A DNA stretch of 64,000 nucleotides, taken from NCBI GenBank assembly GCA_024641005.1, contig JAHEDX010000012.1, positions 1 to 64,000 of the forward strand, given 5' to 3'. The notes under the pieces are model-generated. The model worked only from the letters and a program-made list of their open reading frames with translations, was not told the origin of the DNA and searched no databases. Below are positions 6,321 to 25,551 of this stretch, in pieces. Origin of the DNA: Acidimicrobiaceae bacterium (lineage in GTDB: Bacteria; Actinomycetota; Acidimicrobiia; Acidimicrobiales; Ilumatobacteraceae). A program made the position numbers and the translations under genes. Position 1 is the first letter of the stretch; each line of letters starts with the position of its first letter.

Positions 6321-7709
6321 TCAGCGGATCGGGTACTTTGCCTTGTCGGGCAGTCCGGACCGGGTCGTGATCGCCTCGCCGGCGGCCTGAGCCTTCGCAT
6401 ACAGCTGCGCTTCGTCGATCGTGGTCATGCGGCCGTCCTCGACGACGACCTGGCCCCCGACCATCACCGTGTGAACCCCTCGCCCGTCGGCCGACCACAC
6501 CAGTTGATTCATGACGTTCAAGAGCGGGCGCCACTCGGGCCGCTCGGTGTCGTGCAACACGAGATCAGCGTGTTTGCCGACCTCCAGTGATCCGATGTGA
6601 TCGCTCAACTGGAGTGCCGTCGCCCCACCCAATGTCGCCATCTCGAACGCCTTCTCGGCGGGAAACATCTGTGGGTCCTGACGGGCGTCCTTGAACAGAC
6701 CGGCGACGAGATACGTGGCCCGCATCAAGTCCGAGTAGTTGGAGGCATTGTTGCCGTCGGTGCCGATCGCGATGTTGATGCCGGCCATCGCCATTTCGGG
6801 CATCTTGCCGACCTGTGTGATGCCATAGCTGACCTTGAGCGCAGTTGTGGGGCAATGGGCCACCTGGGCACCGGTCTCGGCGATGATCGCGACCTCGCGG
6901 TCGTCGACTTGCACGCAATGCGTCATCACCACATCGGGACCCAGCACCCCGAGCTCGGCGAGGTGCACCATCGGCCGCTGGCCGAACTCGGCGATGAACC
7001 CATCGGGGTCGAGCATCGCCGGCGACATGTGGAAGCTGAACCCGGTACCGCGTTGTGTCGCGAGATCGCGCGCTGCGAGCCACAGCGGATCCGAGCACGT
7101 GGTGTGACCGACGAGGATCGACCAGGCACCGACCCTGTCGTCGGGGCCGGCGGGATAGGCGTCGAGCTGCCGTTCGAGATGGGCGATCGCCTGGTCGGTG
7201 CGCTGCTGGTAGACCGACGGCTCGGGCGGCAGATCCCACACCCAACGACCGACGCGACCACGGATGCCGACCTCGTCGAGCGCTTCGACGACTTCGTCGA
7301 GGAACCGGATCGTGCCCGCCTCGAGAAACGAGGTCGTGCCCGATTTGAGCATCTCGACCGCGGCCAACTGCGCCGACAGACGTTCCTCCTGGGCGGTGAA
7401 GACCGAGTACAGCGGGCACAACCACATGAACACGTTCTCGACGAACGGCGTGTCATCGGGCACGTAGCCGCGGGTCAAGGGTTCGCCCGTGATGTGGATG
7501 TGGCTGTTGACCAGCCCCGGTGTGACCACGAACCGGTCACCACCGATGTTCCGGTGCGCCTCGTAGGCGGCATCGATCACACTCGCCTTGTCGACGGCGA
7601 CGATCCGCCCTGCATCGATCGCGACAGCCCCGTCGCGGATGATGTCGCGTGTCTGGTTCATGGTCACGACCTGCCAGCCGCGAATGATCGAGTCGACGTG
7701 CTGTGGCAT
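6321..7709 (-). CDS. Amidohydrolase / chlorohydrolase (ATZ/TRZ, SAH-deaminase-like) family
   Basis: VVTPGLVNSHIHITGEPLTRG, THCVQVDDREVAIIAETGAQVAHCPTTALK, IAIGTDGNNASN, GSLEVGKHADLVL. Confidence 0.92.
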   Translation of the reverse strand: MPQHVDSIIRGWQVVTMNQTRDIIRDGAVAIDAGRIVAVDKASVIDAAYEAHRNIGGDRFVVTPGLVNSHIHITGEPLTRGYVPDDTPFVENVFMWLCPLYSVFTAQEERLSAQLAAVEMLKSGTTSFLEAGTIRFLDEVVEALDEVGIRGRVGRWVWDLPPEPSVYQQRTDQAIAHLERQLDAYPAGPDDRVGAWSILVGHTTCSDPLWLAARDLATQRGTGFSFHMSPAMLDPDGFIAEFGQRPMVHLAELGVLGPDVVMTHCVQVDDREVAIIAETGAQVAHCPTTALKVSYGITQVGKMPEMAMAGINIAIGTDGNNASNYSDLMRATYLVAGLFKDARQDPQMFPAEKAFEMATLGGATALQLSDHIGSLEVGKHADLVLHDTERPEWRPLLNVMNQLVWSADGRGVHTVMVGGQVVVEDGRMTTIDEAQLYAKAQAAGEAITTRSGLPDKAKYPIR

Positions 7710-8818
7710 CACTCCCCCATATCTGTTGACATTGTCGGCCACCTCGGTTTGATGGCGACGAACTGCTGCTGGAATCCGATCGGTTCGATCAGGCGGATCG
7801 CCTCGAATCCGGCGGCGCGGATCCACTCGGAGAACTGCCTGGCGGTGAACCCGTTGCCGTTGACGGTGCTGGCCATCATCGTCGCGCCCATCAGCACCGC
7901 GTGCGGATTGAGCTTGCGATCGTCGTCACAGAAGTAGTCGGCCAGGATCAGTGTGCCCTCCGGTCGCAACGCTTCGAACGCACGCTCGATCAGATGTCGC
8001 GCGCCTTCGGCACCCTCGGTTCGGCACACGTGCCCCAGCACGACGATGTCGTACCCGTCGGGTTCGAGCGTCACCGTGTGGAAGTCGCCCGGAAGCAGCT
8101 CGGCCCGATCTGCGACGCCGTGTTCGGCGAGCTTGCGCTCGGCAACGTCCACGACGCCGGGCAGGTCATTGATCACCGCGGTCGCTGTCGAGTTGCCGTG
8201 CAGGATCGCGATCGACCACGGGGCCCCGCCGGCGCCGAGGTCGAGCACTCGCGGTGCGTCCAGAGCCGAATATCGCAGCTTGAGGTCGGCTCGCATCGCA
8301 CACCGGTACATGGTGGTGAACGTGCCCTCGACGAGCGGCACGTAGAACGCGGCCGGGTCGTCTTCGATCGGGGTCGCCGGGCGCCCGTTGCGCACGGTGT
8401 CGGCAAGCCGGGTCCAGTTGTCGTGCGGGCCCGGAGCGACCGGGATCAGATCAGCCATCGTGGCCGGACCGTCGCTCACGAGGTACCGCCGGGCGGTGTC
8501 GTTGAGGTCGTAGACGCCGTCGACCTGATCGAGCAGCCCGAGCACGACGATCGAGTCGAGCAGTGTGCGCAGGTGCTCCAGGGAAGCTCCGACCTGGGCG
8601 TTGACCTGCTCGACTCGTGATGGCCCGATGCGCCGCAAGGTGTCGAACAGGTCGAGTTCGAGGGCGGCGACCAGCAGGTGGTACCGCCCGAGCCCCTCGA
8701 TCGCGGCCCACACCGGTGCCGCCGCTGGAGGTTTGAAATCGGTGAACGGGCGGCCGAGATGGGCCATCGTGTGGGTCTTCTTGAGCTCTGGATAAGGGGC
8801 GTCGCGTGGTTCGAACAT
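7709..8818 (-). CDS. SAM-dependent O-methyltransferase (dimerisation + class I fold)
   Basis: VLDLGAGGAPWSIAILHGNSTATAVINDLPGVVDVAERKLAEHG...DIVVLGHVCRTEG; ATGA overlap with the amidohydrolase gene. Confidence 0.88.
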   Translation of the reverse strand: MFEPRDAPYPELKKTHTMAHLGRPFTDFKPPAAAPVWAAIEGLGRYHLLVAALELDLFDTLRRIGPSRVEQVNAQVGASLEHLRTLLDSIVVLGLLDQVDGVYDLNDTARRYLVSDGPATMADLIPVAPGPHDNWTRLADTVRNGRPATPIEDDPAAFYVPLVEGTFTTMYRCAMRADLKLRYSALDAPRVLDLGAGGAPWSIAILHGNSTATAVINDLPGVVDVAERKLAEHGVADRAELLPGDFHTVTLEPDGYDIVVLGHVCRTEGAEGARHLIERAFEALRPEGTLILADYFCDDDRKLNPHAVLMGATMMASTVNGNGFTARQFSEWIRAAGFEAIRLIEPIGFQQQFVAIKPRWPTMSTDMGE

Positions 8819-14679: not shown

Positions 14680-14683
<4 letters not shown>

Positions 14684-15891
14684 CCGCCGCTGTATGCCTC
14701 GGCCGAGATGCCGCCCAGCTGGTCCATCAGATCGGCATCGTAGGCGCCCAGCAGACCGAAGGCGTCGTCCAGCAACGCCTGAGCCTCTGGTGTCGCGTCG
14801 CACAGCTCGGCGCCGTTGAGGCCTTGCTGGGTCGGGAACTGGTAGGTGCTCCCTTCCGTCAGATCACCGGCGATGATGAGACGCAAGGCCTCGGCGGCGT
14901 AGCGACCACCGTCGAAGACGATGCTCCCGCTCCAGGCGATCCCGTCGTCACGGCTGCAGACGTCGGCCGGACCTGCGGCGAACACCGCGATGCCGTCGTC
15001 GGTCGCCAACTGGCCGACCGGATCGAGCGCTCCACCCAAGTACGCGTAGGCGAGCGTCGCACCGTTGGCCTCGGCATTTGTGAGCGCCGCCGTGGCGTTC
15101 GCCGAGTTGTCGAAGTCGAACTGGAAGTCGCCGGTACCGACATATTCCATCGTGAACGACGGGTCGACCGATTGCAGGCCGAGGACGGTCGCGTTGTACG
15201 ACTCACGCTCGAAGTTGAGGTCGCAGCATCCGAGGAATACCGCCTGGTTGCCACCCTGTTCCTGCAACACGGCACCCATCGCGACGCCGGCCGTGTAATG
15301 GATCGCTGCGCCCCAGTCGGTTGCCTGTGCCAAACCGGGCAACTCCTGGAACCCGGCGCCGCAGTTGCAGTACCAGAAGATGTCGGGGAACTGCTCGGTC
15401 AGATCGGGAAGCGGCTCTGCGATCTCGCTGGCGCCCACGAAGATGATGTCGACGCCCTGCGCCGCGAGGTCGGCCATCGACTGCGCCGCCTCGGCGGATC
15501 CGATGTTGTCGCTCACGATCGGCGGAGCGAACCCGTTCTCGGCCGAGAACTCCTCGGCGAAGGTGACGAGCGACTGGTAGTAACCGTTGTCGTCTCGCGG
15601 ACCTGCCGCGGCAACCCCGATCGTGACCGTCCCGTCGCCATCGGCATCGAACGTCGCGATGATGTCGTCGGTCTCGGGCGCCGCAGCGGTCGTCTCGGGC
15701 GCGTCGGTCGCCATCGGCGCGTCGGTCGCCTCAGGTGCGTCGGTCGCCTCAGGTGCGTCGGTCGCCTCGGGCGCGTCGGTCACCGTGGGCGCGTCGGTCG
15801 CCTCCGTCGCGTCGTCGTCACCGCCGCACGCGGCGACAACGAGCGCAAGCGGAACGAGCAGCGCGCACAGTTTTCTGGACTTGTTGGACAT
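14680..15891 (-). CDS. BMP family ABC transporter substrate-binding lipoprotein
   Basis: Lipobox-like [45 protein letters not shown]; operonic with the ABC components. Confidence 0.88.
15701..15808. repeat. Six tandem 18-nt units (gcgtcggtcgcctcaggt-like) encoding TDAPEA linker repeats
   Basis: Units at 15701, 15719, 15737, 15755, 15773 and 15791; in frame in the lipoprotein linker. Confidence 0.85.
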
Positions 15892-15987: not shown

Positions 15988-17166
15988 TCATGATTGTCGA
16001 GCCCGGTCCACCGAGGCCGATCGGTAGCGCTGGACCAGCCACCGGTTGAACTGCACGTGGCTCTCTTCTTGCCACGAGTACCTGCCACGCGGTGCGTATC
16101 GAGAGTTGAGCCCGTATTGCACCTTGGTGGTGGCGTCCTGATCCTGGCGCACGAAGACCTGTACTCCGGCGTCGGACAACGCGACCTTCTCGGCGAACAA
16201 CGGATCGTCGAGCGCCGAGGGGTGGAAGATGTAGCCGATCTCGACATCGATCGTCTGTGCCCCTGTAGGCCGCACGAGAAAGAAGAAGCACTGGTCGGGG
16301 GCAGTTCCGAAACAGAGCGTCGGCGGGATCAGCGAGAACGTCGATCGTGTTCGTTCCTCATCGGTGAGCTCAGGGAAGACCGGCATGATGACGCGGTGGG
16401 TCGCATTGAAGCCGCCGTCGATGTGGGTGTACCCAGAGGTACGGAAGATCACGTTCGAGTCGTCTTTCCACGGCTCGGGAAACGCCGACAGGTTGGATGG
16501 ACAGAAGTCCTGCACGTACTGATGCAGCCGATTGGCGTGGTAGCCGTCGTTGAAGTTCTCGAACATCACCTTCCAGTTCCACGGCATGCCTTCGAGCGTG
16601 AAGGTGCCGGGGCACACGGCCTCGTCGAGGTGGTAGTTCGAGAGATAGGGGGTGTAGCGCTCGAGTGTCGGGGCCAGGGGGGCGGCGTCGGGATCGAAGT
16701 TGACGAAGACGAACCCCATCCACTCCTCGACCTGCAGTTGGGGCAGGCCCCAGTCCGCCTTGTCGAACGCCTCGGTGCGCTCCATCGCAGGGGCACCGAG
16801 CAGCCGGCCGTCGAGCCCGTAGATCCAGTGGTGGTACGGGCACTTGAAGGTGGTGTCGTTGCCCTGTCCTTCACACACCTGCATTGCACGGTGCTGGCAC
16901 ACCGCCGAGACGCAGCGCACCTGGCTCTCCTTGTCACGCACCACGATCAGGGGCTCGCCCACGAGCGTGACAGTGAACCAGTCACCTGGATTCGGGATCC
17001 GTTCGGCCCTGCCGACGCACAACCACTCGCGCGTGAACAATGCCTCCTTCTCGAACGCGAGCACGTCCTCGGAGGTGTAGAGCATCGGCGGCAACGTGGC
17101 CGCCCTGGACACATCGGCGATCGACGCCTCGAGCGAGTCGAGCAATTCGGCGGACAAGGGGTTCAT
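15988..17166 (-). CDS. Rieske aromatic ring-hydroxylating oxygenase, alpha subunit
   Basis: Rieske [25 protein letters not shown]; mononuclear Fe motif [13 protein letters not shown]. Confidence 0.93.
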
Positions 17167-18680
17167 CGCACTGCCTCCTTCAACAGGAACTTGCGGATCT
17201 TGCCGACGCTCGTTCGTGGCAACTCGTCGAGCATCGTGAACTCGCGGGGCACCTTGGCTTTGCCGAGCCGTTCGGTGCACCAGGCCCTGAGTTCGTCGGC
17301 ATCGGGTGGGGCCGTCGGATCTGCGGCGACGAAGAAGGCGACCGGCACCTCGTCACGAACCGGATCGGGGGCGCCGACGACCGACGCCTCGAGCACGCCT
17401 GGATGAGCGGAGACGACCGCCTCGACCTCGACGGTCGATACGTTCTCGCCGGCGACCTTCAACACGTCGGAGCGTCGCCCGTCGAAGAAGAATCGACCGT
17501 CGCAATCGCGACTCGCCCGGTCGCCGGTGAGGAACCACCCGTCGCGGAACGCTGCCTCGGTGGTGGCCGGATCGTCGAGATAGCCGGCAAACAAGGTGAC
17601 ACCGCGGTCGCCGCGTACCACGATCTCGCCCACCGCGTCGGCTGCCGTCGGGACGCCGTCCGGGTCGTGGATGTCGACCTCGCAGCCGTCGGTGACGAAC
17701 CCCATCGACGTGCAGTTCGGCGCGCCGGCAGCATCGGTGAGCACGGCGGGAATCGTTTCGGTCATGCCGTACAACTGACGAGGCAGACAGCCGAACCAGT
17801 CACCGATGGTGTCGTACTGATCGTCGGTGATGTTCTGGGCGAACCAGCAATGGCGCAGTGTGACACCTTCGGTCCGAGCGCCTCTGGCGAGGATCATCCG
17901 CAATGGAGCGGCGAACAAGCTGGCACATGTTGCCCGATGCCGCGCCGCCTGGCCGAGAAAGCCACTGGCCGAGAAGTTGTGCATCAGGGCCACCGACGCG
18001 CCGACCCAGATCGCGGACGCGAACGAGTAGTACTGGGCATTGGCGTGGAACAGCGGCAGCACGACGAGTTGGCGATCGGCGGTGGTGAGCCCCGCCGCCT
18101 CGGCCATGGTCTTGCCGGCAAACGCATAGTTGGCCTGCGTGATATCGACGCCCTTGGGCCGGCCGGTCGTACCGCTGGTGAACATCACGGCGGCCCGATC
18201 TGCGAGCGTCGGCGCCGGCCAGCCGGAGAATTCGGCGTCGGGGAGCCACCCGAAGCCGGCGTCGGACTCGTCGATGAGGAACAGTGTCAGGTCGCCGGCG
18301 GCCGGCAGGTAGGCGTCGACGCGTGCAACGGAGCAGAACCCGACAGCCGGCGATGTGCGATCGATGTGGTCGGCGAGTTCGGGGGTGCGACCCATCGGGT
18401 CCGATGGCACGATCCACGCCCCCAACCTGATGGCAGCCAGCCATGCGGCGATGAACGTCGGACAGTTCGTGAGCGCCAGGTGAACCGACGCGCCCGGACC
18501 GACGTCGTGGCTGACGAGCTCGGTCGCCATGCGGGCGACGATCGAGTCGAACTCGGCGTAGGTCCACTCGGTGACGGTGCCGTCGGCGGCCTCGAAAACG
18601 AGGAACGAGGCGTCGGGGCGTGAAGCCACCGCAGCAGTCCAGCTGCGAGCGAACGTGACGGCGTCGGGCCAGGTCGCCAT
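17163..18680 (-). CDS. AMP-dependent acyl-CoA synthetase/ligase
   Basis: VMFTSGTTGRPKGVDITQANY, LYGMTETIPAVL, FLTGDRASRDCDGRFFFDGRRSDVLKVAGENVSTVEVEAVV. Confidence 0.93.
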   Translation of the reverse strand: MATWPDAVTFARSWTAAVASRPDASFLVFEAADGTVTEWTYAEFDSIVARMATELVSHDVGPGASVHLALTNCPTFIAAWLAAIRLGAWIVPSDPMGRTPELADHIDRTSPAVGFCSVARVDAYLPAAGDLTLFLIDESDAGFGWLPDAEFSGWPAPTLADRAAVMFTSGTTGRPKGVDITQANYAFAGKTMAEAAGLTTADRQLVVLPLFHANAQYYSFASAIWVGASVALMHNFSASGFLGQAARHRATCASLFAAPLRMILARGARTEGVTLRHCWFAQNITDDQYDTIGDWFGCLPRQLYGMTETIPAVLTDAAGAPNCTSMGFVTDGCEVDIHDPDGVPTAADAVGEIVVRGDRGVTLFAGYLDDPATTEAAFRDGWFLTGDRASRDCDGRFFFDGRRSDVLKVAGENVSTVEVEAVVSAHPGVLEASVVGAPDPVRDEVPVAFFVAADPTAPPDADELRAWCTERLGKAKVPREFTMLDELPRTSVGKIRKFLLKEAVR

Positions 18681-18684
18681 CGGG

Positions 18685-20262
18685 TCACTCCACCGCCGCG
18701 TCGGAGATCGGGCCGTACCCGCCACCACCGGGCAGTTCGAGCCGTACGACGTCGCCGGGCTGCAAGGTGAGGCGGGCCTGGGTGACCACCGACTCGCCGT
18801 TGACCTTGAAGCTGCCGGCCTCTCCCGACTCGCCGCCGAAGACACCTTGCGGTGGCTCAGCGAGACGGCTGGTGACGGCATTGAGCTGCCACGGTCTGCT
18901 GGTGGCGACCGAGAACTCGACGACCTGGCCGAGCCCACCCGTCTGCCGACCGGCTCCGCCGGACCCGCGACGCAACGACTTCTCGTGGAACCGGATCGGA
19001 GCCGATGCCTCGACCACCTCGATCGGGACAGCCGAGACACCGGTCGGGTACGAACAGGCGTCGAGACCCGACTTCGTCGCCCGTGCGCCGACACCGCCGG
19101 CGTAGGTGAACATCGCCGTGATGAACGGCTTGCCGCTGTCGTGGTTGCCGTTGACCTGCATGGTCCACACCGCCCCCGAACCTTCGGCCATCGCGTCGTC
19201 GGGTCGCACCTGGGCGAGCGCCTTGAGCAGCGCGTTGGGGAGGAACATGCCGACCACGTGTCGGGCCGTCCCCGGCTGCGGTAGCACCGCGTTGACGATC
19301 GATCCCTCTGGGGCGACCACCTTGATCGGCCCGAGGCTGCCATGGTTGTTCGGGATGTCGGGATTGAGCACCGAACGCACCGTGAACGTGGTGTATGCGT
19401 GGGTGTAGTTCTTGACCACGTTGATGCCCCATGGGCTCGCCGGAGAGGTGCCCTCGTAGTCGACCGTGACCTCCCCGGCGTCGGCATCGACGTTCACCGA
19501 GCAGACGATGTCGATCCGGCTGCCGTCGGCGAGGTCGAGCACGGCCGACGATGCGTACCTGCCGCTCGGGAGTGCCCGGATGCTCTCGCGAGTGGCAGCC
19601 TCTGAGCGGTCGATGATCTCGTCGGCCAGGCCCTCGATGTCGTCGAGGTCGAAGGTGCTGCACAGCGCCGCCAGGCGTTGCGCTCCGACCTCGCCTGACG
19701 CGAGCTGGGCATGCAGGTCGCCTGCCATGTGATCGGGCTGGCGAACATTGGACAGTATGAACTTCCAGACGTCCTCGTTGCGTTCGCCGCGCTTCATCAG
19801 CTTGCAGATCGGGATCCAGAGACCCTCTTCGAACACGTCTCGTCCACCGGCGCCGATGCCGTAGCCGCCGACGTCGGTGTGGTGGATCGTCGAGCCGAAG
19901 AACGCGATCAACTTGCCGTTGCGCCAGGCGGGTACGAGAACGGTGACGTCGAGCAGCTGGCCGGCGGTCTTGTAGGGGTCGTTGGTGATCAGCACATCAC
20001 CGGGTTCGATGCTGTCGAGCGGGTATTCGACGAGCATGTTGGCGGCGCCGATCGCGAGCGAGTTGATGTGCCCTGGGGTGCCGGTGACCGCCTGGGCGAC
20101 CATCCGGCCGCGTCGGTCGAACACTGCGTTCGCCAGATCACCGGCTTCGCGTACGATCGGCGAGAAGGCTGCCCGTTGCAGGGCGCGGGCCTGCTCGTTG
20201 ACCGTCGCGATGAGCGACTGCCACAGGATCTCGAGCTCGACCGGGTCGAACGAACGGCTCAT
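18685..20262 (-). CDS. Hydantoinase B / oxoprolinase family protein
   Basis: DPVELEILWQSLIATVNEQARALQRAAFSPIVREAGDLANAVFDRRGRMVAQAVTGTPGHI...GDVLITNDPYKTAGQLLDVTVL. Confidence 0.93.
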   Translation of the reverse strand: MSRSFDPVELEILWQSLIATVNEQARALQRAAFSPIVREAGDLANAVFDRRGRMVAQAVTGTPGHINSLAIGAANMLVEYPLDSIEPGDVLITNDPYKTAGQLLDVTVLVPAWRNGKLIAFFGSTIHHTDVGGYGIGAGGRDVFEEGLWIPICKLMKRGERNEDVWKFILSNVRQPDHMAGDLHAQLASGEVGAQRLAALCSTFDLDDIEGLADEIIDRSEAATRESIRALPSGRYASSAVLDLADGSRIDIVCSVNVDADAGEVTVDYEGTSPASPWGINVVKNYTHAYTTFTVRSVLNPDIPNNHGSLGPIKVVAPEGSIVNAVLPQPGTARHVVGMFLPNALLKALAQVRPDDAMAEGSGAVWTMQVNGNHDSGKPFITAMFTYAGGVGARATKSGLDACSYPTGVSAVPIEVVEASAPIRFHEKSLRRGSGGAGRQTGGLGQVVEFSVATSRPWQLNAVTSRLAEPPQGVFGGESGEAGSFKVNGESVVTQARLTLQPGDVVRLELPGGGGYGPISDAAVE

Positions 20263-22388
20263 GACTCACCTCCTGCGCGTAACGGATCGATGCCAGGCAC
20301 CGGCCCGTTACGGGTGGCGATCAGGCTGCCGTCGGCTGCCACCTCGACCGACCATCCCGGTCGGATCACCGAGGTCGTCTCGCGTTCCTCGACCACCGCC
20401 GGCCCGTCGAACCTGGCGCCGGCGCCGAGATCGGCCCGGCGATACACCGGGGCGTCGACAGCGGGCGCTCCCCGGCCGAACACCATGGGTCGATGGCTCA
20501 CCGGCTGGGGCGGCCCCGTGGCGATCGCGAGCGTGCTCGATGGCTCGACGATCGTGGTGCGAGCCGAAGCAGACAGCCGCCACGTGACCGCCTCGACCGC
20601 CACATCGGGGATCGTGAGGCCATAGATGCGGCGGTATTCCTGGTCGAAGGCGTCGGTGACGTCGGACGGCGATGCCGGCCACGTGTCGCCCTCGCCGACC
20701 CAGATCGTGATCTCGTTGCCCTGCCCCGAATAGCGGGCGTCGACGCCGTAACGGAACTGGACTGCGTCGTCCGGCACTCCTGCGGCCGACAGCACGCGGC
20801 GCCCTTCGGCCCGCAGCTCGTCGAGCAGCGCGTCGCGCTCGGCGGGGTCGATGGTGTCGATCATCCGCGGGAGCGACCGCGCCAGGTCGATACGAACCGG
20901 CGACACGAGCGTTCCGAACGCCGACAGGACGCTGGCATTGACCGGGAAGATCAGTCGGTCGGACTCGAGCAGGTCGGCGACACCGCACGCGTGAACTGGC
21001 CCGGCACCGCCGAATGCGATCACCGTGACCCCGCGCAGGTCGACGCCCATCTCGACGCTGTGCATGCGTGCTGCAGCAGCCATGTTCTGATTGACGATCT
21101 CGTGCATACCGGCGGCCGTGTCGATGGTCGACAGGCCCAGCTGGGCGGCGACACGAGCGACGGCGGCGTCAGCCAGGTCCTGGTCGAGCGGCATGTCGCC
21201 GCCGAGGAACGCGTCGGGGTCGAGCAGCCCGAGTAGCACGTCGGTGTCGGTGACGGCCGGCTCGGTGCCGCCACGTCCATAGCTGGCCGGGCCCGGCTCG
21301 GCACCCGACGATTCGGGGCCGACCTTGAGCAGACCGAACTGGTCGACGCGACCGAGGCTGCCGCCGCCGGCACCGATCTCGACCAGATCGACCGAAGGAA
21401 CCGAGACCGGAAAGCCGGAGCCCTTCTTGAATCGATACGCGCGGGCCACCTCGAAGGTGTTCGTGAGCTCGGGCTCGCCGTGCTCGATCAGGCATGCCTT
21501 GGCGGTGGTGCCACCCATGTCGAAGCACAGCAGCCGCTCTTCGCCGAGCCGTTTCGCGAACCAGCTCCCCGCGAGCGCACCGGCTGCAGGACCACTCTCG
21601 ACGAGTCGGATCGGCGCCCGTGCTGCGTCGTCCGCCGAGACGACACCGCCATTCGACAGCATCATCAGCACCGAGCCACCGAAACCCTCGGCCGACAACC
21701 ACTTCTGCAGCTCGTCGAGGTAGGGCCCGATCACGGGCATCGTCGCGGCGTTACATGCCGTGGTGATCATGCGCGGGTATTCACGGATCTGCGGCGAGAT
21801 CTCCGCAGAAATGCACACTGGGACCCCGAGCTCGCGGCGTAGGTAGTCGGCAATCTTCTGCTCGTTGACGCGATTCACATAGCTGTTCAACAAGCAGATC
21901 GCGACCGACTCGACATGGGACGAGGCAAGTTGGCCGGCGAGTTGTGCCAGATCGTCCTCGGTCGGGTCGACGAGCACCTCGCCGGTGGCGCTGACGCGTT
22001 CGTCGATCTCGAACGTCAGCTCGCGGGCGATCGGAGGTGCCGGGAATTCGATCTGCAGGTCGTACATGTCGTAACGGTGCTCGTCACGGATCAGCAGAGT
22101 GTCGCCGAAGCCCTTCGTCGTGACCAGTCCGCTGCGCCCGATCTTGCCTTCGATCAACGCGTTCGTGATCAGCGTGGTGGCGTGCACGATCGGTGCGGTG
22201 ATCTCGTGCGGAGCGACGCCCGCTTTCGCCAAGAGCTGTGTGACGCCGGCGCGCACGCCGTCGAGCGGAGCGCTCGGCGTCGTGAGCGTCTTGTCGACCA
22301 CGATCCGCCCGGTTGCGGCGTCGAGCAGTACGACGTCGGTGAACGTGCCGCCGATGTCGACCGCGAGTCGCCAGTCGGTCTGTGTCAT
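20259..22388 (-). CDS. Hydantoinase A / oxoprolinase family protein
   Basis: WRLAVDIGGTFTDVVLLDAATGRIVVDKTLTTPSAPLDGVRAGV; FDMGGTTAKACLI; AFGGAGPVHACGVADLL. Confidence 0.94.
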   Translation of the reverse strand: MTQTDWRLAVDIGGTFTDVVLLDAATGRIVVDKTLTTPSAPLDGVRAGVTQLLAKAGVAPHEITAPIVHATTLITNALIEGKIGRSGLVTTKGFGDTLLIRDEHRYDMYDLQIEFPAPPIARELTFEIDERVSATGEVLVDPTEDDLAQLAGQLASSHVESVAICLLNSYVNRVNEQKIADYLRRELGVPVCISAEISPQIREYPRMITTACNAATMPVIGPYLDELQKWLSAEGFGGSVLMMLSNGGVVSADDAARAPIRLVESGPAAGALAGSWFAKRLGEERLLCFDMGGTTAKACLIEHGEPELTNTFEVARAYRFKKGSGFPVSVPSVDLVEIGAGGGSLGRVDQFGLLKVGPESSGAEPGPASYGRGGTEPAVTDTDVLLGLLDPDAFLGGDMPLDQDLADAAVARVAAQLGLSTIDTAAGMHEIVNQNMAAAARMHSVEMGVDLRGVTVIAFGGAGPVHACGVADLLESDRLIFPVNASVLSAFGTLVSPVRIDLARSLPRMIDTIDPAERDALLDELRAEGRRVLSAAGVPDDAVQFRYGVDARYSGQGNEITIWVGEGDTWPASPSDVTDAFDQEYRRIYGLTIPDVAVEAVTWRLSASARTTIVEPSSTLAIATGPPQPVSHRPMVFGRGAPAVDAPVYRRADLGAGARFDGPAVVEERETTSVIRPGWSVEVAADGSLIATRNGPVPGIDPLRAGGES

Positions 22389-22768
22389 CAGCCGTTCCTC
22401 AGATCGTCTCGTGGCGGAGCGAACACGTCGAGGATCCAGCACTCGTCGTATTCGTCGTCGCCGACGAACACGCTGTCGCCGTGCCACACCCCGTTGGTTG
22501 CCAGATATGCCTGGTGCTCGCCGAGCACCACCCGGTCGGTCGGGTCGTCATCGCCGATCCGGAAATCGAGGGCGCCGCGCACCACCACGCCCAACTGCTC
22601 ATGGTCGTCGTGCTTGTGGAGGAACGAGCCGGTCGCCCCACCCTTGATACGCCAGAAGCACAACTGGAGCTGTTCACCGGTGATGACCCTGCGCCGAAAG
22701 CCCGGACGGTCGGTTTCGACGAACTCGTCGTCATCGAAGAAGTGGCAGTACTGGGCGCTCAGGTCCAC
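22388..22768 (-). CDS. Cupin domain protein
   Basis: GATGSFLHKHDDHEQLGVVVRGALDFRIGD...NGVWHGDSVF; ATGA overlap with hydantoinase A; GTG start uncertain. Confidence 0.75.
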   Translation of the reverse strand: MDLSAQYCHFFDDDEFVETDRPGFRRRVITGEQLQLCFWRIKGGATGSFLHKHDDHEQLGVVVRGALDFRIGDDDPTDRVVLGEHQAYLATNGVWHGDSVFVGDDEYDECWILDVFAPPRDDLRNG

Positions 22769-22900
22769 GCCGGGACCCCGTTCGGGTGTGGATCGACGAT
22801 GCTCGTGGGTGCGTGGTCGGCGCCGCCGAGGCGACGCATTCCCTGGATCGTCATGCCCGATTCTCCCCCGGTGAACTGCCGACCCGATCGGCTGGACTGA

Positions 22901-22911
22901 TGGTCAGACCA
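22901..22911. promoter_or_regulatory. Candidate GntR/FCD operator TGGTCAGACCA upstream of the cupin-hydantoinase operon
   Basis: Palindrome TGGTC-A-GACCA, one of four copies in the locus. Confidence 0.75.
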
Positions 22912-23005
22912 TACCAGACCTCACCCGATTCGACGACTCGAATGATTCCCGACGCGATGCCCGAGCAGCAGCGGGCTCCGGAGCCGGACGGCAGCATCGT
23001 GGCCC

Positions 23006-24001
23006 TCACCCGGTGACCCCGATCAGCGCCGCGAACCGCCGGCGCCATTCGACCGATGCACGGTCGGCTTGTACGTTGACGAGTCCGGTGCGCTCGAGCG
23101 GCATGGTGCCTGGCACCATCTCGAGCATCCGCTTGTCCTCGGCGCCGATCGCCCGGTCGAACGTGATCACCTCTTGTGGATCGACGGAGAAGTCGTCATT
23201 GCGCCACACCACGAACGTGAACAACGAATGGGTGTCGTCGACCGGCGTGCTGCACAGCAACAAGATGTGTTCGAGGCCGTCTTCGTACCGGATCGTGCTG
23301 CGCACCGAGAACGGCAACTGGAAACCGGTGCTCATGTGTCGATGCACCACCGGTTCGGTGGTGCCGGTCGTGGCGACCGCCTGGTCGGGGTTGTTGGCAT
23401 CGACTTCGTAGGCGTAGCCGAACCAACCATTGTCGAGATCGCCGAGCTCGATGCGAGGCACGAGCGTGCTCTGCCCGGCACCGAACGTGCCGGTGTGGAC
23501 CCAAGGGAAATGACTGATGTCGCAGAAGTTGTCGACCATCCGGGTCGCACAGACACTCCAGTGCTGGATGCCGCTGTTGATCCGACGGAACCTCGGGTCA
23601 TCCTCGTGGGAGATCAGCGGGATGCCTTCGGACGGCTCACCGGGACACATCCACACCAACCCGTACCGCTCTTCGACGTTGACGCAACGCAGGTGAGCGG
23701 TCGGGGGAATCGCTGCGCCCTCGCCAGACGACGGCACGCCGATGCAGTGCCCTCGATCGCCGAACGACCAGCCGTGGTACGGACAGGTGAGCACGCCGTC
23801 GACGACGGCGCCCTGAGACAGCGGGGCTTCGCGGTGTGGACACCGATCCGGGGCAGCGACGACCGTTCCGTCGGCGGTTCGCCACACCACATAGCGATCC
23901 CCGAGCAGGGTGACTGCGTGGGGATCGCCGGCGATGTCGACACCTTCGGCGACCGGGTGCCACGCAGCTCGCAGCACCGGACTTGCGACGAATCCCGTCA
24001 T
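23006..24001 (-). CDS. Rieske 2Fe-2S oxygenase (VanA/PAO-like oxygenase component)
   Basis: CPHREAPLSQGAVVDGVLTCPYHGWSFG; DNFCDISHFPWVH mononuclear Fe site. Confidence 0.93.
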   Translation of the reverse strand: MTGFVASPVLRAAWHPVAEGVDIAGDPHAVTLLGDRYVVWRTADGTVVAAPDRCPHREAPLSQGAVVDGVLTCPYHGWSFGDRGHCIGVPSSGEGAAIPPTAHLRCVNVEERYGLVWMCPGEPSEGIPLISHEDDPRFRRINSGIQHWSVCATRMVDNFCDISHFPWVHTGTFGAGQSTLVPRIELGDLDNGWFGYAYEVDANNPDQAVATTGTTEPVVHRHMSTGFQLPFSVRSTIRYEDGLEHILLLCSTPVDDTHSLFTFVVWRNDDFSVDPQEVITFDRAIGAEDKRMLEMVPGTMPLERTGLVNVQADRASVEWRRRFAALIGVTG

Positions 24002-24043
24002 ACATCCCCCTCGGCAGCTCCGGACCGCCACCACAGTCCCGGA

Positions 24044-24054
24044 TGGTCAGACCA
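24044..24054. promoter_or_regulatory. Candidate GntR/FCD operator TGGTCAGACCA upstream of the Rieske gene
   Basis: Palindrome within GGATGGTCAGACCATCTGACCATCC, ~43 nt upstream of the start codon. Confidence 0.75.
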
Positions 24055-24121
24055 TCTGACCATCCGGGATATTACTCAGGGTCGACTCGGAACGCCAGCC
24101 GAACCCGACCGCAACACGCGC

Positions 24122-24865
24122 TCAACGCAAGTCGTCGACGATCGAGTGTTCGACCGTGACGAGGTGAGCGGTGACCGCGTCGTTCATCAGCGCGGAGTTC
24201 CCCGCGGCGAACGCATTCGCGATCGCGCGGTGGCCGGCGATCGCATCGACGACCAGCCGCCGAACCTCAGGCCGGTTCTGCTCATCGCGGAGGATCGCGT
24301 CGAAGTCGCGGGAGCGGAAGAGTTGATCGAGGACCTTTCCGTACAACTCGATCAGGAGCGGATTGCCGCACAGGGAGGCGATCGTCGTGTGGAACTCTCG
24401 ATCGAGCCGTCTGAATTCGTCGATCTCCAGATCGTCGTCGAAACGCTGCAGCAGCGAGCGCACCGCCTCACGGCCGGCATCGTCGGCGCGTTCGGCGGCG
24501 AGCGAGAAGATCGGGGCTTCGAGCACTCGGCGCGTCTCGAACAGCTCGCGCACGAATGTCTTGCGATTGTCACCGCGTTCGACCGACACCTCCGGCAGGT
24601 GCTCGGCGACACACGTGCGATTGCCGCGCCGCTCGATCACACCGAGCGACAACAAGCCCTGGATTGCTTCGCGAACCGACGTTCGAGCGACCTGGAACTG
24701 GTCGCTGAGCTCACGTTCGGACGGGATGCGAGCCCCGGGCGCCAGTTCGCCGGTGGTGATCCGTTGCAGCAGCTGCTCACGGATCTGGGTACTGACCGTC
24801 CGGCGGGACACGGGGTCGAAGGTCACGGGTTCAGACAGGACGGACTCCTCCAAGTGTGTGGACAT
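24122..24865 (-). CDS. GntR family (FadR/FCD subfamily) transcriptional regulator
   Basis: VSTQIREQLLQRITTGELAPGARIPSERELSDQFQVARTSVREAIQGLLSLGVIERRGNR plus helical FCD C-terminus. Confidence 0.93.
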   Translation of the reverse strand: MSTHLEESVLSEPVTFDPVSRRTVSTQIREQLLQRITTGELAPGARIPSERELSDQFQVARTSVREAIQGLLSLGVIERRGNRTCVAEHLPEVSVERGDNRKTFVRELFETRRVLEAPIFSLAAERADDAGREAVRSLLQRFDDDLEIDEFRRLDREFHTTIASLCGNPLLIELYGKVLDQLFRSRDFDAILRDEQNRPEVRRLVVDAIAGHRAIANAFAAGNSALMNDAVTAHLVTVEHSIVDDLR

Positions 24866-24927
24866 GGCGACCTTTGACGACATCTCGACGATACCTGCCG
24901 CGACATCCCAGGGTGACATCGTTGGAC

Positions 24928-24944
24928 CGATGGTCCGACCATCG
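24928..24944. promoter_or_regulatory. Candidate autoregulatory operator CGATGGTC-C-GACCATCG
   Basis: 17-bp palindrome ~63 nt upstream of the gntR start. Confidence 0.8.
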
Positions 24945-24988
24945 GCCCAGTCAGGCTACCGGCGCCGTGATCGCAGGACAAGACCAAC

Positions 24989-24999
24989 TGGTCAGACCA
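24989..24999. promoter_or_regulatory. Candidate GntR/FCD operator TGGTCAGACCA upstream of the VOC gene
   Basis: Fourth copy, ~64 nt upstream of the ATG at 25063. Confidence 0.75.
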
Positions 25000-25062
25000 T
25001 CGGACCGCGAGCTAGTGTTGGGCGAATCCCACGAACGGAACCGTCGCCATCGGAGGCCAGTG

Positions 25063-25551
25063 ATGCACGAATCGACCTACGACATCCACCCCGCCGAGGC
25101 CAGGTGGACCCATGTCGCCCTACGGGTCGACGACATCGACGCCACGATCGACTTCTACACCTCGATGACCCCGATGGTGCTGATCGACAAGCGCCAGGAC
25201 GACATGGGCTTCGGAGCATGGCTCGGCATGCCCGGTGCGACCACCAACCCGTTCATCCTCGTGGTCGCCCAGTTCCTCGAGGGGTGCGATCCCTTCGCCG
25301 ACGCGCCCAAGGAAGTGCTCGCGCCCTTCGCTCATCTCGGTGTCGAATTGCCCAGCCGCGATGCGATCGACGAGATGGCGGCCCGAGCCGAGGCCGCGGG
25401 TTGCCTGGCGATGCCAGCCACCATGATGCCGCCACCGATCGGATACATCTGCATGGTCCGCGATCCCGACGGCAACATGATCGAGTTCTCGTGGGACCAG
25501 GGCGTGTACGCCACCCTCCGCGACAAGTGGGGCCTCCCCGGCGACGCCTGA
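25063..25551 (+). CDS. VOC (glyoxalase/bleomycin resistance/dioxygenase) family protein
   Basis: RWTHVALRVDDIDATIDFYTSMTPMVLIDKRQ...YICMVRDPDGNMIEFSWDQGV. Confidence 0.9.
   Translation: MHESTYDIHPAEARWTHVALRVDDIDATIDFYTSMTPMVLIDKRQDDMGFGAWLGMPGATTNPFILVVAQFLEGCDPFADAPKEVLAPFAHLGVELPSRDAIDEMAARAEAAGCLAMPATMMPPPIGYICMVRDPDGNMIEFSWDQGVYATLRDKWGLPGDA

Follow-up and report, generated by a model that had tools for sequence, protein, structure and literature searches.

Gene content of the locus

The window, a 64,000-nucleotide stretch of DNA (contig JAHEDX010000012.1) from a bacterium of the Ilumatobacteraceae, contains a gene for a GntR-type regulator located among genes for oxygenases, hydantoinase-type enzymes and an importer. 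The genes referred to below are as follows.

14680..15891, minus strand: Bmp/PnrA-like substrate-binding protein of an ABC importer (Pfam Bmp, just under the cut-off)
15988..17166, minus strand: first Rieske oxygenase (Pfam Rieske and Ring_hydroxyl_A)
17163..18680, minus strand: AMP-dependent acyl-CoA ligase (Pfam)
18685..20262, minus strand: HyuB-type hydantoinase subunit (Pfam)
20259..22388, minus strand: HyuA-type hydantoinase/oxoprolinase subunit (Pfam)
22388..22768, minus strand: cupin, the first of the conserved genes in the main operon (Pfam Cupin_2, just under the cut-off; conserved beside gntR)
23006..24001, minus strand: second Rieske oxygenase with a VanA-type C-terminal domain, predicted target (Pfam Rieske and VanA_C; homologs align from near the ATG)
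24122..24865, minus strand: GntR-FCD regulator, predicted repressor (Pfam GntR and FCD; translation may instead begin at the in-frame ATG at 24919)
25063..25551, plus strand: VOC/glyoxalase-family protein, predicted target (Pfam Glyoxalase; operator conserved upstream)

Two of the enzymes gave distant leads only: HyuA scored 489 against caprolactamase alpha (cut-off 1000), and the first Rieske oxygenase scored 138 against GbcA (cut-off 670). A search for literature on this cluster found none. An amidohydrolase-like open reading frame (6321-7826, IIRGWQVVTMNQTRDIIRDGAV...) follows the importer genes in the same orientation; its start resembles amidohydrolases that carry the operator described below in relatives (L168).

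Four palindromes in the window

A preliminary description of this DNA had reported four TGGTC-N-GACCA palindromes, and exact copies (TGGTCNGACCA) were present at all four coordinates: 22901-22911, 24044-24054, 24931-24941 and 24989-24999. The core at 24931-24941 sits within CGATGGTCCGACCATCG, as quoted in that description. All four sites are intergenic, and a scan of the window for further exact copies found none. The genome-wide scan that had been proposed returned only eight exact 11-mers in the 4,137,365 bases of the draft genome (4.14 Mb), the four in the window and four others at C75:2333, C90:9143, C121:15049 and C174:36342. The copies on C75, C121 and C174 lie within open reading frames that were read as coding and have no exact third half-site (see below); the C90 copy is intergenic, between surE and a glyoxalase-type gene. 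Against a background of 4 copies per 4.135 Mb, the Poisson probability of four sites in 2.1 kb is ~7e-13. Equal frequency of the motif elsewhere in the genome was ruled out, with three of the four other copies in open reading frames and the remaining one a likely true member of the regulon.

The palindromes had been placed 43-64 nt upstream of the first start codons. This range holds for the second Rieske gene (43 nt from the core to the ATG at 24001) and for the VOC gene (64 nt to the ATG at 25063), but for the other two sites the distance depends on the start chosen. The core of the cupin operon lies ~45 nt from an ATG at 22856, which opens a 31-codon leader reading frame, and ~133 nt from the conserved cupin start at 22768. 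The gntR core lies 66 nt from the ATG at 24865; with the in-frame ATG at 24919 as the start, the distance falls below 12 nt. The 31-codon reading frame (22761-22856) is located between the operator and the cupin gene and has a good ribosome-binding site. In relatives, a VOC gene designated VOC3 begins at this place, and the reading frame may be a deletion remnant of VOC3. No E. coli-type promoters were found near the sites and the sites could not be placed relative to them, and overlap with a promoter therefore cannot be argued.

A probable 19-bp operator with a third half-site

Orthologs of the regulator were present in 47 of 222 genomes of the family Ilumatobacteraceae, from which 40 loci were taken; together with the window these made up 41 loci (581 kb). 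A wider set comprised 55 FCD-type GntR orthologs, drawn from the Ilumatobacteraceae and from further families of the order, and 18 loci from these further families were compared as well. Genes in relatives were called mechanically and their start codons are approximate, and counts from related genomes are not independent. TGGTC-N-GACCA was the commonest 5-N-5 palindrome in the 41 loci, with 77 copies in 33 of the 41 loci; palindromes whose halves had the same composition averaged 0.97. No site fell inside the genes of the cluster. The sites were located before gntR, VOC, Rieske-2 and cupin genes and, in some relatives, also before Bmp.

Alignment of the 77 sites revised the initial view of the operator as an 11-bp palindrome. 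A third half-site, GWCCR, lies exactly 3 bp outside the core, on one side, in 76 of the 77 sites (61 exact; other offsets gave 0-5 exact matches). The actual unit is thus 19 bp in length, with the composite form TGGTC-N-GACCA-NNN-GWCCR. Each window site belongs to such a unit, TGGTCNGACCANNNGWCCR, and the genome contains exactly five of them, the four in the window and one at C90:9135-9153. The putative operators of the window, and a repeat that encloses one of them, are as follows.

22893..22911, minus strand: operator of the cupin-hydantoinase operon, TGGTCTGACCATCAGTCCA (exact composite with its core at 22901-22911; the third half-site, 22893-22897, faces the operon)
24037..24069, no strand assigned: perfect inverted repeat of 33 bp, with 15-bp arms and a 3-bp centre, TCCCGGATGGTCAGA-CCA-TCTGACCATCCGGGA, enclosing the Rieske-2 operator
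24044..24062, plus strand: operator of the second Rieske gene, TGGTCAGACCATCTGACCA (exact composite; third half-site gene-distal)
24923..24949, no strand assigned: candidate autoregulatory operator of gntR, TGGACCGATGGTCCGACCATCGGCCCA (G/C-centred core 24931-24941; half-sites on both sides)
24989..25007, plus strand: operator of the divergent VOC gene, TGGTCAGACCATCGGACCG (exact composite; third half-site on the gene side)

The 19-mer of the cupin operon is identical before the orthologous operon in genomes G109 and G108, as is the VOC 19-mer before the VOC ortholog in the same two genomes. The gntR operator is an exact composite on the minus strand and has one mismatch on the plus strand.

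The location of the 24044 site within a perfect inverted repeat could be taken to mean that the palindromes are terminators, members of a mobile repeat family or chance repeats. We consider this explanation negligible, given the Poisson probability above and the failure to find any terminator-like site. In addition, information content in the 77-site alignment drops to near zero just beyond the operator, unlike in a mobile repeat, and placement before the same genes is conserved across the order. A terminator at the 33-bp repeat was ruled out, as no T-run follows it, and chance occurrence of the palindromes was ruled out by the 77-copy enrichment, the fixed third half-site and the co-occurrence among genomes described below. 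In the nearest relative, G109 (L067 near 10364), the repeat is found as a version with 14-bp arms in which two outer pairs are changed, compensating on both sides; it was absent in the other relatives. The compensating changes suggest that a hairpin at the Rieske-2 operator may be under selection.

The side on which the third half-site lies was fixed for each promoter, being gene-distal at 21 of 21 Rieske-2 sites and gene-proximal at every cupin, VOC3 and Bmp site sampled. The centre of the core also followed the promoter. Twelve of 116 cores were G/C-centred, and all 12 were upstream of gntR, where most are flanked by a half-site on either side; the cores of structural genes were A/T-centred. 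The autoregulatory site therefore represents a distinct class. Part of this pattern of polarity and centre is due to shared ancestry.

We infer that the 19-bp operator combines two FadR-type sites that overlap about a common dyad with an 8-bp stagger. In the 77-site alignment, position 14 is weakly conserved and flanked by the conserved positions 13 and 15, and this low information fits the centre of a second site. Bases 9-11 would be shared by both sites, and therefore only one of the two can be perfect.

Sites with an imperfect core often keep the outer halves around a degenerate middle half, for example TGGTCTGACAGTCAGACCA in L100. Loci L092, L094, L095, L100 and L103-L106 keep the outer 19-bp dyad at equivalent promoters, and the middle half-site is lost. 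Since a few lineages lose the middle half, the exact binding mode is uncertain. These loci, together with an enrichment of TGGTC-N9-GACCA (57 copies; most other spacings gave 0-11), would fit an operator formed by the outer 19-bp dyad, TGGTCNGA-NNN-TCNGWCCR, bound by a single dimer with wide half-sites, in which case the core would be a by-product of the CCA centre. This is unlikely, as most outer dyads hold a perfect core, the core is three times as common as the exact outer dyad (171 vs 57), and the geometry of the FadR subfamily is TKGT-N3-ACMA; the weak position 14 is likewise what a second FadR-type site centred there would produce. Building on two overlapping sites, a further proposal is that two dimers bind cooperatively on the staggered palindromic sites, as NanR does, and that an order-wide promoter code distinguishes A/T-centred, three-half-site catabolic promoters of fixed polarity from the G/C-centred, two-sided gntR promoter. 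We offer this combined proposal tentatively, as a real possibility somewhat short of probable.

Association of the operator with gntR and its predicted targets

The exact sequence ATGGTCNGACCAT was present in 37 of the 47 family genomes with a GntR ortholog, compared to 23 of the 175 without. The 19-mer TGGTCNGACCANNNGWCCR was present in 39 of 47 and 4 of 175, respectively (Fisher 7e-31, kinship ignored). The 19-mer recurs in other families of the order, where in most of the 18 loci it is again found next to the GntR ortholog, to Rieske-2 and VOC genes and to the cupin-hydantoinase operon. Conservation upstream of orthologs, which had been named as a check on the palindromes, was thus observed, with the same operator before the same genes across 55 orthologs. 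The proposed tie of the second Rieske and VOC genes to the main operon is likewise kept order-wide.

Grouped by similarity, the targets in the family included VOC2 (18 loci), Rieske-2 (16), VOC3 or cupin (15), gntR (11), an FmdA_AmdA family protein (10), VOC1 (9), Bmp (4), amidohydrolase (4) and flavin reductase (2). In the window, no separate operator for Bmp was found between the first Rieske gene and Bmp; a Bmp ortholog with its own operator occurs at L073:772, L077:1081, L081:17557, L082:9767 and L085:15197. The fifth 19-bp operator of the genome (C90:9135-9153; L206:4036-4054) has its core 53 nt upstream of a second VOC/glyoxalase gene, a VOC2 ortholog whose neighbours are surE and an amidohydrolase gene. 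The presence of the operator before VOC2 orthologs in 18 loci supports the C90 site as a likely real member of the regulon. The regulon had been described as local. The four window sites are indeed clustered, but the fifth lies on another contig and the regulon is therefore not purely local.

Since the sites and the gene cluster travel together, co-occurrence alone cannot exclude another regulator. The core is shared among a number of FadR-subfamily regulators, LldR and FadR included, and the genome encodes at least one further GntR protein, of weak similarity (C174, 35% identity), so a FadR-type protein other than the adjacent one might be the main regulator at these sites. We regard this as very improbable. 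Most loci have a site at the promoter of gntR itself, the sites next to gntR are retained even where the neighbouring genes differ (L078, L209, L216), and hardly any family genome that lacks the GntR ortholog contains the 19-mer. Comparative genomics thus supports the adjacent FCD-GntR protein, the candidate named in the preliminary description, as the regulator, with binding predicted for the product of 24122-24865.

The GntR-FCD regulator

The fold of the regulator is clear from its predicted product, which matched the Pfam GntR (62 bits) and FCD (79.8 bits) models, both above the cut-off. The nearest PDB chain was E. coli NanR (6on4, 3.9e-16). The best NCBIfam match was the NanR subfamily at 99.2 bits, below its cut-off of 260, and the protein is not assigned as a NanR equivalog; LldR (71.5 vs 311), FadR (31.8 vs 189) and PdhR (63.6 vs 330 bits) also scored under their curated cut-offs. 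Alignment of the 55 orthologs revealed conserved winged-helix blocks around PSER, VARTSVREA and RRGNR. Residues R69, R79, T80, R83 and G99 (numbered from the 24919 start) were at least 95% conserved, as were the FCD metal residues D173, H177, H230 and H252. We take the former five to be equivalent to FadR Arg35, Arg45, Thr46, Arg49 and Gly66. Ahead of an F-x-P...R-x-T block, the N-terminal extension appears variable rather than conserved among the 55 orthologs, the start codons of which are uncertain. The winged helix and FCD domain, the TKGT-N3-ACMA operator, the contact arginines and threonine with the wing glycine, and the Asp/His metal site support membership in the FadR subfamily of GntR proteins, for which dimer binding and release by a ligand are predicted.

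Proposed regulation

The four palindromes are very probably operators of the GntR-FCD protein encoded at 24122-24865, which would act as an autoregulated, effector-released repressor of a dispersed catabolic regulon. A dimer would read TGGTC-N-GACCA in the manner of FadR, and the extra half-site, of which every operator has at least one at 3 bp from the core, probably brings in a second dimer or stabilises it, with an 8-bp stagger. When free of inducer, the bound protein would block transcription of gntR, the divergent VOC gene and the second Rieske gene, as well as the cupin-hydantoinase-ligase-Rieske-importer operon and the second VOC gene on the other contig. A metabolite of the pathway would occupy the metal-containing FCD pocket and release the protein from DNA.

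Repression rather than activation is predicted from the position of the sites near start codons, as is usual for repressors, and from those relatives in catabolic loci whose mode is known, most of which, like NanR, are effector-released repressors. The polarity of the third half-site, which varies between promoters yet is fixed for each, could be read instead as the mark of an activator, or of a protein that activates or represses depending on the promoter; given the points above, we consider this improbable.

The operator set defines, from sequence, a regulon that extends across a little-studied order of actinobacteria and serves a catabolic pathway not yet characterised, with two Rieske oxygenases, ATP-dependent hydantoinase-type enzymes, VOC proteins and an importer. 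Searching a genome for the exact 19-bp operator can reveal further genes of the pathway wherever they lie, as on C90.

Comparison with known regulators

The FadR-type reading of the sites in the preliminary description was supported. TGGT-N3-ACCA has the form of the FadR-subfamily operator consensus, TKGT-N3-ACMA (PMC4494728), and the E. coli LldR box, AAnTGGTCnGACCAnTT (PMC10272880), and the FadR consensus, AACTGGTCNGACCAGTT (quoted in PMC3626644), both match. The 11-bp core is identical to that of LldR and FadR, which are also GntR-FadR regulators of catabolic or metabolic genes. However, the operator described here lacks the AA/TT flank ends and has a fixed third half-site, its targets are different, and the protein scores far under the cut-offs of the LldR and FadR models.

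NanR is the nearest solved relative and the best NCBIfam match, and is likewise a metal-binding FCD regulator. On (GGTATA)3, several FCD dimers of E. coli NanR pack on close repeats, each in an asymmetric pose, and NanR needs a 32-residue N-terminal extension, which mediates cooperativity (PMC8012715; PDB 6on4, 6wfq, 6wg7). NanR reads direct GGTATA repeats, whereas the sites here are TGGTCNGACCANNNGWCCR with a palindromic core, and the N-terminal extension appears not to be conserved in the present family.

Third half-sites beside GntR-family operators have been described previously. Suvorova et al. (2015) found that many GntR-family sites have an additional half-site at 7-12 nt from their centre, with about half the strength of a true half-site on average, and left the role of these boxes open (PMC4494728). 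The operator described here is a natural case of such a half-site. It shares the arrangement of a palindrome with an adjacent half-site, the centre of which lies 11 bp from the core centre and thus within the 7-12 nt range. It differs in that the additional box hardly varies (present in 76 of 77 sites) and keeps to one side at each promoter, which makes the present case an unusually strong and clean one.
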